From: Bacteroidota bacterium
GTDB lineage: Bacteria > Bacteroidota > Bacteroidia > CAIKAF01
Reading direction: 5' to 3'
Assembly: GCA_016866335.1 (NCBI GenBank)
Contig: VGMT01000019.1
Span: 1 to 40,273, forward strand
Length of the DNA stretch: 40,273 bases
Shown: one piece after another, positions 1 through 38,890 of the stretch
Position numbering within the stretch: position 1 is the stretch's first letter
How the letters are laid out: each line of letters opens with the position of its first letter
Notes under the pieces: generated by a model
What the model was told of the DNA's origin: nothing
The model's database searches: none
Seen by the model: only the letters and a program-made list of their open reading frames with translations
Made by a program: the position numbers and the translations under genes

Positions 1-221
1 GGCCATCCTGCCTTTAAGGTTTGGATGCGGCTCTATTGGTCGTGGCGTAAATTCTCGGGACACGGCCCGCGGCAGGGATTGAGCGGAGTTGCCCGCAAGG
101 GGCCGGCCGGCTGCCGCGACTTTAGGAGCTACTTTTGGGCCATACCCGGCCCGGCAGGCACCGCGGACAACCCGTGAAAGCCCAGCAGCCGCCCCATTTT
201 CAAAAAATACCCTATCAATTT
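1..221. other. Non-coding stretch downstream of the PhoD-like gene
   Basis: No credible gene is visible here. The stretch is mostly occupied by a GC-rich repeat element (about 61-195, described separately) in the sense of the minus-strand phosphatase gene that ends at 222. The short open frame at 89-298 is a translation of the repeat plus the antisense of the phosphatase gene and is not believable. Bases 1-60 show nothing I recognise, and what lies upstream is outside the window. Confidence 0.6.
61..195 (-). repeat. GC-rich structured 3' element, copy A
   Basis: Read on the minus strand, this copy starts with a GGGGCGG box about 27 nt after the phosphatase stop codon. It carries the family blocks GGGCTTTCAC, GTCCGCGG, GCTCCTAAAGTCGC, CCTTGCGGGC and CAATCCCTGCCGCGGGCC. 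An outer helix is visible: 61-65 pairs with 172-176 (CACGG/CCGTG) and 67-72 pairs with 161-166 (CCGCGG/CCGCGG). The inner arms are GC-rich and pair imperfectly. The 14-nt block GCTCCTAAAGTCGC is identical to that in copy B. GC content is plainly higher than in neighbouring genes. Boundaries are estimated by comparing the four copies by eye. Confidence 0.75.
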
Positions 222-1754
222 TTATTTTTCTGAAATCAAGAAAACCCGGAAGGAGCCCAAGCGGTCTTCTTCTAAAAACAAGGGGCTGGAAATTTTAGGT
301 GTTTGTGTGCAAAGAATAAGGGGGTTTGATTCGCCTGCGGCAGCAGCGTCTAGAATATTCCCTTTTGCAGTTCGAAGCCTGTAAAGGCTTCCCGATTTTT
401 CCGATGTAATTGGAATTTTGACGTTGAGCGTATTTTCAGTCCGGTCAATGTCGAACGAATCTCCTTGATTTTTGGAACTTGGTAAAGACCAAAAAAAGGA
501 TTCGTGGAACAATATGGTTGGTTGTAAATATCCTGGCATTGTTTGTTGGCCAGTAATTCTAAGGCTAATTGCCGCGGCATCGTTGTCAATAATTTGAAAT
601 TCCACCCATTGTCCGGCTCCCAAGGGGTTGACAAATGCACCGTGCGAATAGGTGCCGCCTTTGTTGGATCCAAAACTCAACAAAGCTCCAGCTTGAACAA
701 CGGGGAATCTTGTTTTTAAGGTATTTGGGGACGTTTGAATTGAAGATAAGGCAGCAGCGTTGCTGCCATCATCTAGGGCGCTCATATGGGCATCTCCGCA
801 GATTATGGCCACCTTATCTATGCTGTTTTCTTCGATGTATTCAACAATCATTTTGCGTTCTTCTGGGAATCCACCCCAGTTGTCTGTTTCGTTTCCGTAC
901 CAAGAAACCGAGCTAAAAATAAGAGCCAGTTGATGGTTAAGGTGGGCGGTACGAAGTTCTTGTTTTAGCCAATTCATTTGTTCGGAGCTCATGATGGTTG
1001 AATCGGTTCTTTCGCTTCTTAAGTCAAGAACAATAAATCGAACTCGACCATTTTGAAAGGAATGAGCCATTCCTGCGGCTTGCCGATAGGGGGTATAACC
1101 GGGAAATCCGGCTAGGTATGCGGCTCTTGCGGCATTTCCGCATGGGGAGGGTCTGGCAGAGTTATTGCCGCAGTAATCATGATCGTCCCAGATGTAATCT
1201 ATGGGCACACGTTGGCAAAATGCTTGTTCTTTTTTACCGTTTAAAAATCGAGTTAAATAGGGGCGAAGATGATCTTCAATTTGAGTGCTGCTAATGTCGC
1301 CGTAATGCAAATCACCCAGATGCAAAAAGAATTGAGGGTAAAAGTCCATCATAGGCAAATAGGAGGGACTTCCTAGGGTAAAGGAGCAACTGCTGGCTAT
1401 AAATTTAAATCCTGTTGGTCGATTGCTGAATGTTTTAAAGCTGCCTGAATAGCTTGAATCTTGGCCTGTAGCGATAAGTCGGTAAATATAGGCCCTGTTT
1501 TCATCTAAATCGGTTGCCTTAGATGTCCAAACAAAAGTGTTTCCAATTTTTCGCGTTTCTACGGGAAGTCGGCGAATAATTCCAGAGGCCGGATCAAGGA
1601 TTTCCCAATTGCCTTGGTTTTTCGTTTGGGGGGCGGAAGGGAAAGCCGTTAATTTAGCAGAATGGGAATTTACCCCCCCTACCCACATGGGTATCTGCCC
1701 TATACCATTTTTAATTAGGAGGCAAAAAAACAATACAGCAAATAAAGCCTTCAT
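222..1754 (-). CDS. PhoD-like secreted metallophosphatase
   Basis: This 510-residue protein begins with a signal peptide (MKALFAVLFFCLLIKNGIGQ). It resembles the PhoD/alkaline phosphatase D group of calcineurin-like phosphoesterases, which cleave phosphomonoesters or diesters outside the cytoplasm using a metal centre. Visible metal-site motifs are HLGDLHYGD, DDHDYCGNN and GDAHMSALDDGSN, inside a domain covering roughly residues 110-420. The part before it looks like the beta-sandwich common in PhoD proteins. The family is clear but the substrate is not. It is the last gene of a tight minus-strand run, 3 nt after the propeller-amidohydrolase gene, and is followed by repeat copy A. Confidence 0.85.
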   Translation of the reverse strand: MKALFAVLFFCLLIKNGIGQIPMWVGGVNSHSAKLTAFPSAPQTKNQGNWEILDPASGIIRRLPVETRKIGNTFVWTSKATDLDENRAYIYRLIATGQDSSYSGSFKTFSNRPTGFKFIASSCSFTLGSPSYLPMMDFYPQFFLHLGDLHYGDISSTQIEDHLRPYLTRFLNGKKEQAFCQRVPIDYIWDDHDYCGNNSARPSPCGNAARAAYLAGFPGYTPYRQAAGMAHSFQNGRVRFIVLDLRSERTDSTIMSSEQMNWLKQELRTAHLNHQLALIFSSVSWYGNETDNWGGFPEERKMIVEYIEENSIDKVAIICGDAHMSALDDGSNAAALSSIQTSPNTLKTRFPVVQAGALLSFGSNKGGTYSHGAFVNPLGAGQWVEFQIIDNDAAAISLRITGQQTMPGYLQPTILFHESFFWSLPSSKNQGDSFDIDRTENTLNVKIPITSEKSGSLYRLRTAKGNILDAAAAGESNPLILCTQTPKISSPLFLEEDRLGSFRVFLISEK

Positions 1755-15340: not shown

Positions 15341-15426
15341 TTCCATTTCGCGCCCATTTTGAGCTCCAAAGTTCTTCAAAGTTCTTTGGTGAATATTCTC
15401 CTTATGTCTTTGTTTAGGTATTGTTT

Positions 15427-15577
15427 GGGCGGGTAATCGGGCTTTCACCGGTGGTCCGCGGCTGCAGGCTATGGCCCCAGCGGGGTTGCGGGGGCTCCTA
15501 AAGTCGCCTCCGCCCCTCGCGGGGCCATGGCCTGACACCCTTGCGGGCCACCTGGTTCAATCCCGCCCGCGGCCATT
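15427..15577 (+). repeat. GC-rich structured 3' element, copy B
   Basis: Starting 86 nt after the PorE-like stop codon and in the same sense, this copy carries GGGCGGG, GGGCTTTCACC, GGTCCGCGG, GGCTCCTAAAGTCGCC, CCTTGCGGGCC and GGTTCAATCCCGCC. Three nested helices are visible. The outer one pairs 15453-15461 with 15567-15574 (CCGCGG/CCGCGG plus GG/CC). The middle one pairs 15465-15478 with 15521-15534, 13 Watson-Crick pairs and one G-U. The apical one pairs 15488-15495 with 15506-15513, 7 pairs plus one G-U, closing the loop TCCTAAAGTC. In the antisense both G-U pairs would be A-C mismatches. Confidence 0.82.
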
Positions 15578-15743
15578 CAAAAATAATGGCTCCTCCCAAA
15601 TTGATTTTGCCCATTAACCATCCTTCCACTGTCGCATTGAATTGAAAACCTAAATAAAGGTTAAAAAGTGCGGAAATGCCCTTGACAAAATTGTTGAAGG
15701 TTCGTAATTTCGTAACTCACTAGTGATAAAAAAGTAGCATTTG

Positions 15744-15772
15744 CTTCGCCACGTTTTTTTGGGGTGGCGAAG
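15744..15772. other. Perfect 9-bp hairpin in the convergent spacer
   Basis: CTTCGCCAC (15744-15752) is exactly complementary to GTGGCGAAG (15764-15772), with an 11-nt loop made mostly of T and G. No T run follows closely on either strand, so it is not a clear intrinsic terminator. It may be part of an unrecognised RNA or only a local fold. Confidence 0.4.
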
Positions 15773-16128
15773 AACACTTAGGGATTATTTTTAGGCGTGA
15801 AGTGTGTTTTGTGGATTGTAGGAAAGCTGAAAAGCAATTCAATGGTTCATAGGGGGTCTCAGAAAAGCCTTCTAATTTGGTAAAGGCAACTTTGCTGAAG
15901 GGGAAGGCGGGAGTTTCGGGAATGAGACGGGATGAAGTGGTAGATCATCCTTTTTGGGTTAGGGTTGATGAGAGGAATGGGAGTAGCGGTGAAAGGTAAA
16001 AAGGAGTTAGGCAAATGCCAGCGCTCGTTTCTCGAATCGGTATTGGATTGGAAGAGGCCGCGGTGCCCAAGGGAGTCCGTCTTGTCATTTTGTCAAGATC
16101 GCGTCTCTAAAAGGCGTTGTTTTTTTAT

Positions 16129-16278
16129 CACGGCCCGGCGCAGGGATGGAACAAGGTAGCCTGCAAAGGGACAGGCAATCCAGGGCCCAGCGAGGAGGCG
16201 ACCTTGGGAGCCACCGCAGCAGGCTGCCCTGGACTGCCTGTACCTAGCTGCTACCTGAGACAGCCGGTTAGCGCCCCT
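16129..16278 (-). repeat. GC-rich structured 3' element, copy C
   Basis: In the sense of the minus-strand gene ending at 16294, this copy begins with GAGGGGCGC about 15 nt after the stop codon. It ends with CCATCCCTGCGCCGGGCCGTG, close to copy A. A middle helix pairs 16240-16226 with 16186-16172: 14 Watson-Crick pairs and one G-U in the sense strand. The arms CAGGCAGTCCAGGGC / GCCCTGGATTGCCTG differ in sequence from copy B but keep the pairing. The enclosed block at 16190-16218 (TGCGGTGGCTCCC...GTCGCCTCCTCGC) is nearly identical to copy D. Confidence 0.8.
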
Positions 16279-16293
16279 CAAAAAAACTATCCC

Positions 16294-36528: not shown

Positions 36529-37844
36529 AAAAAAGACTAAACCTTCCTCTATATCAAAAAATTTTGATTGGCATGCTCTTGGGCCTGCTCTATGGCTGGA
36601 TTTCCATTCAACAGCAGTGGCAGTTTTTTACCTTCCATTACATTCAACCTGTGGGCGACGTTTTTATGCGCCTCCTTCAATTGATTGCCGTTCCTTTGGT
36701 TATAGCCTCGTTGGTTACAGGTTTGGCCCAAATTAAAGACATAGCCAGCCTTGGGCGCATGGGCATTCGCACCCTTATTTTGTTTTTAACTACCACTTTT
36801 TTGGCTGTGGCAATCGGACTTGGAATTGCCAACTTTGTGAAGCCGGGAAATCAACTCCCTGCCCACATTCGAACCGAACTTCAGCAAACCTACACAAACG
36901 CACAATCGACCAATTCCTCGGTTTTAACCCGTCAAAAAGCCCTGGAAGAACAACCAACCCTTCAGTTTTTGACCGATGCCGTACCAAAAAATATATTTGG
37001 TGCAGCATCCGACAACAGCAACATGCTGCAGGTTATTTCTTTTGCTCTGCTTTTAGGTTTGGCCTTGGTTCTTGTACCGGTCGAACAGGGTAAGCCTCTG
37101 CTGCGCTTTTTTGAATCGCTCAATGCGGTGGTTTTAAAGATGGTTGATTTAATCATGGCAGCGGCACCCATTGGGGTGGCAGCTTTAATGGCTTCGGTTT
37201 TGTCGAACCTTGCCGGAAATACCTCGGCCGCTTTTGATTTGGTTTTGGCTTTAGGTACGTATGCCCTCTGTGTCATTGCAGGGATTTTTTGCCTCCTTTT
37301 TATTATGAATCCTCTGGTCCTGTTTGTTTTTTCAAAAAAATTTAAATTCAAAGATTTGTTTTTCTTCTACAAATCTATTTTTCCCGCTCAATTGCTCGCC
37401 TTTTCAACCAGCAGCTCAGCGGCTACCTTGCCTTTAACCTTTGAAAGGGTGGAGCAGCACCTGAAAATCAGACCACGTGTGGCTGGGTTTGTTTTGCCTT
37501 TGGGAGCCACCATCAATATGGATGGAACCTCTCTCTATCAGGGCGTGGCTGCGGTTTTTATTGCCCAGGCCTTCGGGCTAGATTTGAGCATTTCTGAGCA
37601 ACTTACTTTGCTGCTGACCTCGGTTTTGGCTTCCATAGGCTCGGCCGCCGTTCCCGGAGCCGGCATGGTTATGCTTGTTATCGTTTTAAAATCGGTGGGA
37701 ATGGACCCTGCAGGAATTGCCCTAATCATTGCCCCCGATAGGTTGTTGGATATGTTCCGCACCACCGCCAACGTTACCTCCGATTGCATGGTGGCCTACA
37801 TTGTAAACAGCCACGAAAAAGAAGACGAACATGGTTTCTGTTAA
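36525..37844 (+). CDS. Glutamate/dicarboxylate:cation symporter (DAACS family)
   Basis: This 439-residue inner-membrane carrier belongs to the glutamate/aspartate/C4-dicarboxylate symporter family (GltP/DctA type). It has the serine-rich hairpin FSTSSSAATLPLTFERVEQH, the GATINMDGTSLYQGVAAVF helix and the DRLLDMFRTTANVTSDCMVAYIV substrate/cation-binding segment. Eight hydrophobic segments fit the fold. Which amino acid or dicarboxylate it carries cannot be read. ATG 36525 overlaps the aroC stop by 4 nt; an upstream TTG at 36516 is unlikely. Its end overlaps the hydrolase gene by 14 nt, so the three genes form an operon. Confidence 0.93.
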   Translation: MKKRLNLPLYQKILIGMLLGLLYGWISIQQQWQFFTFHYIQPVGDVFMRLLQLIAVPLVIASLVTGLAQIKDIASLGRMGIRTLILFLTTTFLAVAIGLGIANFVKPGNQLPAHIRTELQQTYTNAQSTNSSVLTRQKALEEQPTLQFLTDAVPKNIFGAASDNSNMLQVISFALLLGLALVLVPVEQGKPLLRFFESLNAVVLKMVDLIMAAAPIGVAALMASVLSNLAGNTSAAFDLVLALGTYALCVIAGIFCLLFIMNPLVLFVFSKKFKFKDLFFFYKSIFPAQLLAFSTSSSAATLPLTFERVEQHLKIRPRVAGFVLPLGATINMDGTSLYQGVAAVFIAQAFGLDLSISEQLTLLLTSVLASIGSAAVPGAGMVMLVIVLKSVGMDPAGIALIIAPDRLLDMFRTTANVTSDCMVAYIVNSHEKEDEHGFC

Positions 37845-38736
37845 AGCCCGTGCCATGGTCTTAATGCTAAGGGGCTTGCGAAAAGCGGTTTACAGGGAAA
37901 ATATGCCTGTTTTGAACATGCGAAAGGGCTTTGAACTTTTAATGTCGCGCTTCCCCATTCCAGACGGAGTTACGGTACAAAAAAAAACCGAAGATGGCAT
38001 TCGGGGCTGGAGCATTCAGCCCGAAAATCCAAAGCATTCAGGCTGCATTTTTTTTCTGCATGGGGGCGCCTACGCCATGGGTTCAGGTAGAACCCACGCC
38101 CCCTGGGTAGCTCAGTTGGCGCTCAATTCCGGTTGCAGGCTTTTTTTGCCTGAATACCCCCTTGCTCCCGAGCACCCCTTCCCGGCAGCTTTTAAAATGC
38201 TGAGCAACCGTTTGCCCGCCTGGTCGCATTCGCAAAACCATAATTTTGTTTTGGCAGGCGATTCGGCCGGAGGGGGCCTGGCACTTGCTCTGCACCACCG
38301 TTTACTGGCCAACAATTTGCCTGCGGGCCGAGCTTTAACCCTGTTTTCCCCTTGGGTTGATTTGCGTCCTCTGCAGGCCCAAGCTTTGGCCATGGAACCC
38401 TTCGATGCCTACATTCAAGCCGCCGATGTGGAGCGATTTGCCGAGCTTTACGCCCCCGGTCAACGTGAAAATCCGGAAGTTTCGCCCCTGATCCAGGCCC
38501 ATCAAACCAAGGCTCCGGTCTTGTTGCATTACTGCTCTAACGAGCTGCTCTATTCTCAATGTCAGCAACTTACTGAAATTTTGAGGAACTCGAATATTCA
38601 AGTTGAGTCGCAGGTCTGGCCTGGCCTTTTTCACGTTTTTCAAGCCGCGGGTAACTGGCTTCCCGAATCTGAAGCTTCCCTGTTAGCAGCCGCTGGGTTT
38701 ATTCAAAAGGCTTTCAATGATGCTTGTACAGGGTAA
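37831..38736 (+). CDS. Alpha/beta hydrolase, HSL-type esterase
   Basis: This 301-residue cytoplasmic hydrolase resembles the hormone-sensitive-lipase group: FFLHGGAYAMGSGRTH forms the oxyanion hole, AGDSAGGGLALAL holds the nucleophile Ser, and PGLFHVFQA the His. The acid residue lies in SNELL, where Glu seems to replace the usual Asp; this is tolerated in some relatives. LPEYPLAPEHPFPAAF is typical. The substrate is unknown. It is the last gene of the aroC operon, and repeat copy D begins a few bases after its stop. Confidence 0.88.
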   Translation: MVSVKARAMVLMLRGLRKAVYRENMPVLNMRKGFELLMSRFPIPDGVTVQKKTEDGIRGWSIQPENPKHSGCIFFLHGGAYAMGSGRTHAPWVAQLALNSGCRLFLPEYPLAPEHPFPAAFKMLSNRLPAWSHSQNHNFVLAGDSAGGGLALALHHRLLANNLPAGRALTLFSPWVDLRPLQAQALAMEPFDAYIQAADVERFAELYAPGQRENPEVSPLIQAHQTKAPVLLHYCSNELLYSQCQQLTEILRNSNIQVESQVWPGLFHVFQAAGNWLPESEASLLAAAGFIQKAFNDACTG

Positions 38737-38741
38737 TTTTA

Positions 38742-38890
38742 GGGCGCCTTTTCCCGCTTTCACCTGTAGGCTGCTTGCCCAATCCTACTCAACCTTGAGC
38801 TGCGGTGGCTCCCGGTGGTCGCCTCCTCGCTCTGGCTTCGTTGGGCTTGGGCTTCGCCGCCTGCCGGTTCAATCGGGGGCGCTGAGCCCC
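38742..38890 (+). repeat. GC-rich structured 3' element, copy D
   Basis: In the sense of the hydrolase gene and starting about 6 nt after its stop, this copy carries GGGCGCC, CCCGCTTTCACC, the block at 38801-38830 (TGCGGTGGCTCCC...GTCGCCTCCTCGC, nearly identical to copy C) and GGTTCAATC as in copy B. Helices visible are GCGCC with GGCGC at the two ends, GCCCAA (38777-38782) with TTGGGC (38841-38846), and GAGC (38797-38800) with GCTC (38829-38832). A closing hairpin GGGGC (38876-38880) / GCCCC (38886-38890) is followed by T-rich sequence, so this copy could also end transcription. Confidence 0.75.

Follow-up and report, generated by a model that had tools for sequence, protein, structure and literature searches.

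The two covarying helices found between positions 15465 and 16240 of the window (the whole stretch of 40,273 nt that was analysed) belong to two of its four copies, designated A to D, of one dispersed rod hairpin of 146 bases. The best explanation, in which we have about even confidence, is that this family is a REPIN-like single-stranded DNA hairpin element moved in trans by a RAYT/TnpA-REP enzyme. A sequence-only reading of the same DNA had suggested that selection acts on RNA and not on DNA cruciforms. Its covariation is borne out; its strand-polarised wobbles and its gene-sense orientation are not, and selection on a gene-sense RNA is not shown. Single-stranded DNA, which the choice between RNA and DNA cruciform had left out, fits better.

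The rod hairpin and its copies

Direct reading of the letters placed the helices exactly where they had been described, within elements that are longer than the helices named. The helix of copy B (15465-15478 with 15521-15534, + strand) consists of 13 Watson-Crick pairs and one T-G pair at 15470-15529. In that of copy C (16240-16226 with 16186-16172, - strand), 14 Watson-Crick pairs are joined by one G-T pair, and the apical helix of copy B (15488-15495 with 15506-15513) has seven Watson-Crick pairs and one G-T pair. As had been noticed, the arms differ between the copies yet keep their pairing, and the single odd pair of each helix is T-G or G-T in the element strand. The coordinates of the copies and their parts are shown in Table 1. 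Copy B folds at -103.1 kcal/mol with a z score of -6.6, and none of 200 shuffled sequences folded as well. The fold of copy C is only somewhat better than that of shuffled sequence (z -2.4), and copy A by itself folds no better than its shuffles. The stop codon of the gene at 37831-38736 (+) lies 5 nt before copy D.

Table 1 Positions of the rod hairpin copies and associated features.
Feature	Position	Strand	Evidence or remark
Copy A, diverged rod hairpin 3' of gene 222-1754 (-)	67..194	-	69.8 bits (cmsearch)
Copy B, near-consensus 146-nt rod hairpin	15427..15572	+	145.2 bits (cmsearch)
Copy C, older diverged rod hairpin	16135..16277	-	79.8 bits (cmsearch)
Copy D, very diverged rod hairpin	38742..38884	+	40.8 bits (cmsearch)
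Variable middle arm and apex of copy B	15465..15534	+	Sequence; covarying columns
Variable middle arm of copy C	16172..16240	-	Sequence; orthologue comparison
Fixed wobble U15455-G15547 in GTCC/GGGC	15455..15547	+	U-G in 100 of 117 copies
T-rich, C-poor 5' flank, family-typical	15417..15426	+	Flank composition across copies
3' tail, GGCC-N-CTCA-like, end of family similarity	15573..15584	+	Alignment of B with its closest copy
Second dispersed repeat (rep2) between B and C	15740..15964	+	27 matches in genome
Close inverted rod pairs	G000 C2:11331/11524; G003 C20:11987/12180; G003 C23:150708/150935		Positions of pairs
RAYT loci with upstream element, high-copy species	L156, L158, L161, L163, L153 (partial copy)		One RAYT is a fragment

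A covariance model built from 30 copies found at least 150 copies in the 2.45-Mb Flavobacteriales genome, the weakest of the matches listed scoring 107 bits, and blastn of the window's own genome (G000) with copy B gave 41 places. In an unbiased sample of ~430 kb, the window included, the density was ~10 copies per 100 kb, and thus ~250 copies are expected per genome. Copy number is likewise high in the sister species G001, G003, and G004; the congeners G002 and G005 have fewer and more diverged matches, in diverged subfamilies. The elements are oriented about equally on both strands of the sampled contigs. No replication-strand bias was seen, the copies being about equal per contig and the GC skew too weak for a test. 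Close pairs of rods were always inverted, with their 3' sides facing each other and 50-84 nt apart. A phage or plasmid origin of the element was rejected as it gave no match, and an informal look for attC-like integron sites revealed neither arrays nor GTTRRRY ends in the copies. A literature search by sequence letters returned chance matches only.

The repeat rep2 between copies B and C is ~225 nt long and has no match in Rfam. A promoter-like CTTGACAA-N17-GTAATTT lies ahead of the window copy at about 15683-15712. In four aligned rep2 copies a rod precedes the repeat by ~90-170 nt in the same orientation, and a Bacteroidota-type promoter is retained in the stretch ahead of the repeat; rep2 may be a multicopy small RNA gene. 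The stretch comprising B and rep2 (15427-16000) is near-copied in the same order at G000:C2:78394-78959 (rod about 94% and rep2 93% identical), which looks like the duplication of a composite unit. In the G003 orthologue of window 15341-16293 (C15:89064-89735), rep2 is reversed and adjoins the orthologue of copy C, and copy B is missing.

Placement and substitution rate

Each of the copies A to D lies behind a gene and runs in the same sense, and the helices had been read in the direction of the upstream gene. This arrangement holds for A to D but not for the family, in which 27 sampled copies lie between convergent genes, 9 between divergent genes, and 42 between codirectional genes, the last divided into 23 sense and 19 antisense copies. 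The polarity is therefore that of the element and not that of the gene. The 10 nt on the 5' side of the element are T-rich and nearly free of C whatever the direction of the gene, so this asymmetry also belongs to the element. Specifically, T accounts for 65-73% at positions -6 to -2, and TTTT occurs within the last 10 nt before the element in 67% of copies, compared with 8% at -40 to -30. An intrinsic terminator was rejected because the T-run is 5' of the hairpin, and no hairpin followed by a T-run was found on the 3' side. A TCAA end as in IS608 was present in the expected place in only 27% of copies (TCA in 42%), and its conservation is not claimed.

Three more distant sister species lack copy B at the orthologous locus, and no clean, alignable empty site was found there or elsewhere. 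Between G003 and G004, two sister species about 94-96% identical, the sites are stable. All 16 sites with both flanks scorable in G004 were filled in both genomes of this ~96%-identical pair, which argues against recent movement. At one shared site, the G004 copy has a 52-nt internal deletion. Same-site elements differ at 23 of 2402 positions (0.96%), and the flanks at 130 of 2085 noncoding (6.2%) and 59 of 2140 coding positions (2.8%), so that the copies evolve 6.5 times slower than their noncoding flanks (p about 1e-23). At the G003/G004 scale, therefore, both genomes hold the same old copies, and these change slowly; it is unusual for a dispersed repeat to evolve several times slower than the surrounding noncoding DNA. 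A copy is present in 45% of convergent intergenic regions and in 14-19% of regions elsewhere (p = 7e-5), and the median distance of the copies is 57 nt to gene 3' ends and 111 nt to gene starts. This preference for convergent gene ends, together with the slow evolution, indicates that the copies are constrained in place. The low substitution rate suggests that they now serve, or are tolerated under, a constraint at gene ends.

These features would also be those of a host-selected boundary element at gene 3' ends, whatever its origin, which, as a stable hairpin, would protect transcripts from 3'-5' decay or act as a barrier to convergent read-through. The two strands are almost equally stable when folded (-88 and -86 kcal/mol), so such an element would work in either orientation. 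We consider this reading rather unlikely, despite its agreement with the substitution rates and with the convergent and 3'-end bias. Avoidance of promoters and coding DNA alone would account for much of the placement, the slow change may instead reflect low mutability of GC-rich hairpins, 19 of the 42 codirectional copies are antisense, and 9 copies lie between divergent genes. Moreover, with the hairpin and T-run arranged as they are, it is not a classical terminator.

Covariation and wobble pairs

The RNAalifold consensus of the family is one unbranched rod, with double changes in 24 of its 46 pairs. Covariation was assessed on 92 copies aligned with MAFFT without a structure model, using an R-scape-like test in which the APC-corrected G statistic was compared with a null of substitutions permuted over the tree. 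Ten column pairs were significant at E ≤ 0.05, and all of them are base pairs of the consensus hairpin, with none elsewhere. Covariation of the arms beyond the phylogenetic background, as had been predicted from copies B and C, was thus confirmed. Orthologues of copy C in G001 and G003 keep the helix despite changed arms; compared with each of them, copy C has five pairs that are changed on both sides and still Watson-Crick, as well as several one-sided changes. One end of copy C is also present at a contig edge in G004. The internal loops, the bulge, and the fixed wobble are among the best conserved features of the rod.

The wobble pairs gave a different result. It had been implied that the odd pairs are only G-U, and never A-C, in the gene-sense strand, and a count of one against the other had been proposed. 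The stem cells of 117 distinct copies contain 245 G-U and 47 A-C, and most of the G-U cells are contributed by two columns in which the majority of copies have a wobble. When these two fixed columns are set aside, the numbers are about equal at 67 G-U to 47 A-C (p = 0.07, uncorrected for kinship). Among 18 same-site pairs of G003 and G004, five changes were between Watson-Crick and A-C and two between Watson-Crick and G-U. In view of both counts, the rule does not hold and the three wobbles noticed at first are not representative. The strand-specific feature is one fixed wobble in GTCC/GGGC, which is found in several subfamilies. Strand-polarised wobbles are therefore not supported as evidence for RNA, and significant covariation with few G-U pairs is by itself no proof of RNA. 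Strand asymmetry at a fixed site and compensatory changes would be equally expected of a single-stranded DNA hairpin element.

A structured RNA, either non-coding or part of a 3' UTR and transcribed in the direction of the upstream gene, as proposed by the sequence-only reading and by Rfam for the related family Flavo-1, appears improbable. It would account for the significant covariation and for the two fixed wobble columns, which pair only on one strand, and Flavo-1 has been rated as "probably" RNA (PMC2864571). With RNA parameters the element strand is on average 2.3 kcal/mol more stable, but with DNA parameters the other strand is favoured by 1.2 kcal/mol. Neither the near balance of G-U and A-C nor the lack of any orientation preference toward a transcribed gene agrees with a gene-sense RNA, and the Rfam model of Flavo-1 describes the opposite strand of the same hairpins. 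Published RNA-seq does not show consistent transcription of Flavo-1: its matches in the F. psychrophilum transcriptome show no preference for sense over antisense, and many are not transcribed (PMC9723704), which agrees with a DNA element. Least probable of all is retention of the repeat as a cruciform or palindrome in double-stranded DNA that serves a DNA-binding or nucleoid protein, with the arms equalised by hairpin-templated repair instead of selection on pairing; changes are mostly from Watson-Crick to Watson-Crick (985 double-changed cells, with only the 67 G-U and 47 A-C intermediates outside the fixed columns), as copying from arm to arm would give, but repair of this kind should remove the internal loops, the bulge, and the fixed wobble, all of which are conserved, and the T-tract lies on one side only.

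RAYT genes and comparison with known systems

In the REPIN-like explanation, B and C would be copies of a non-autonomous dispersed hairpin element. The moving unit would be one DNA strand folded into the long rod and recognised in that folded form, and a Y1 HUH enzyme (RAYT/TnpA-REP), provided in trans, would copy the rod into new sites that are extragenic and T-rich. An element of this type would explain the covarying arms, the fixed wobble of one strand, the constant end motifs, and the T-tract on the same side. We infer mobility itself, single-stranded DNA as the moving form, and a RAYT as the mover.

A RAYT protein search detected intact RAYT genes in sister species. No intact RAYT was found in the 99%-complete G000 genome, where PF01797 had no match at E ≤ 0.001 and the only RAYT is a decayed fragment at C9:5861-5974 beside a copy; the element population in G000 is therefore probably no longer moving. 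Each of the five RAYT loci of the high-copy species (Table 1) has a copy or part of a copy on the same strand within ~600 nt upstream, compared with 32 of 571 sampled genes (5.6%) having a same-strand element within the same distance. The RAYT proteins scored below the cut-off of the NCBIfam model for REP-associated tyrosine transposase and above that of Pfam Y1_Tnp, and the G003 protein is identical to one from a Flavobacteriales MAG. The RAYTs of the congeners G002 and G005 are mostly without a neighbouring copy. Several RAYT loci, L156 and L158 among them, bear their own GTAGAGACG-type palindromes, which may be the true partners of the enzymes. At L156:1372-2217 (+), in-frame GTAGAGACGCAA...TTGCGTCTC palindromes occur in and around the RAYT gene, as for TnpA-REP subclass 2.4. 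The RAYT-like genes of G002/G005 at L157 and L159 end, at ~2100-2350, in ERPDERPDE/SPTESPTE repeats, and this tail overlaps a rod in antisense orientation. Outside the genus, RAYT-like genes were present in 21 of 22 genomes with the short hairpin and 13 of 22 without it (mean 4.3 vs 1.3), a comparison confounded by phylogeny, and in a strict scan no hairpin of the same motif turned up next to the best RAYT genes of other genomes and phyla.

Flavo-1 (RF01705) is likewise a dispersed high-copy hairpin in Bacteroidota. The window copies had no Rfam match at the gathering score (42 bits for Flavo-1), and copy B had no Flavo-1 match up to E = 10; their apparent miRNA matches were those of generic long hairpins. 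Only three weak Flavo-1 matches occur in G000, and those with loci (L370 and L382) are separate short hairpins. The ends of B and C nevertheless have the Flavo-1 architecture (T-run, GGGCG, CGGGCT-N-TC ... ATCCC, and closing CGC), and the short Flavo-1 copies, including L370 and L382, share with them the T-rich 5' side, the GGGCG start, CGGGCTTTC...CAATCCC, and a closing CGCC. Due to this shared end architecture, B and C are placed in the Flavo-1 superfamily, though they fail the Flavo-1 score. They differ in being about twice as long, in having an extra arm that covaries and an apex that is conserved, and in lacking the side hairpin, and the Rfam model represents the complementary strand. Short hairpins with the same ends are present in the genus of the window at L370, L382, L371, L383, and L372. 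Among 296 genomes of the phylum, 23 contain the conserved-end pattern CGGGCTNTCCGC...ATCCCTNNCGC, and none contains its reversed form. Rfam assigns several hairpins bearing the pattern to Flavo-1, on the opposite strand, and the Rfam model gave up to 127 Flavo-1 matches in one genome and 0 in 14 control genomes. We tentatively propose, at somewhat less than even chance, that Flavo-1, a "probable RNA" for 16 years, is the short form of a phylum-wide Bacteroidota superfamily of REPIN-like single-stranded DNA elements, whose long form is kept in this genus by purifying selection at gene ends after decay of the enzyme. An orphan RNA family would thereby be linked to mobile DNA hairpins, and the question becomes whether a Bacteroidota RAYT cuts one strand of the rod.

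With IS200/IS605-derived single-stranded DNA elements, the rod shares a strand-specific hairpin and a one-sided flank preference; it differs in having no left and right end pair around a gene, and it showed no fixed target tetranucleotide. The atypical structures of TnpA-REP subclass 2.6 (RAYT group 5) are similar by description (PMC6006769) in belonging to the same phylum, in their adjacency to the enzyme gene, and in having copies elsewhere. The RAYT at L163:1474-2103 has a YIHQNP motif resembling that of the subclass and a copy ~150 nt upstream; it has DHFH where the consensus given there is NH[LIV]H. In REPIN hairpins compensatory changes are reportedly common (PMC3116915), and the enzyme of REP sequences cleaves one strand only (PMC8266576). 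Compared with the REPIN/REP and RAYT systems, the window element is a longer rod without an intact RAYT in G000 and without the constant unpaired GTAG/CGTC tetranucleotide at the foot, the position being GTTG, GTAG, or GTGG and paired. It shares with them its extragenic location, hundreds of copies, a compensated palindromic hairpin, a strand-specific motif, vertical persistence, and adjacency to RAYT genes, which copies flank in the high-copy species (PMC3116915, PMC8266576).
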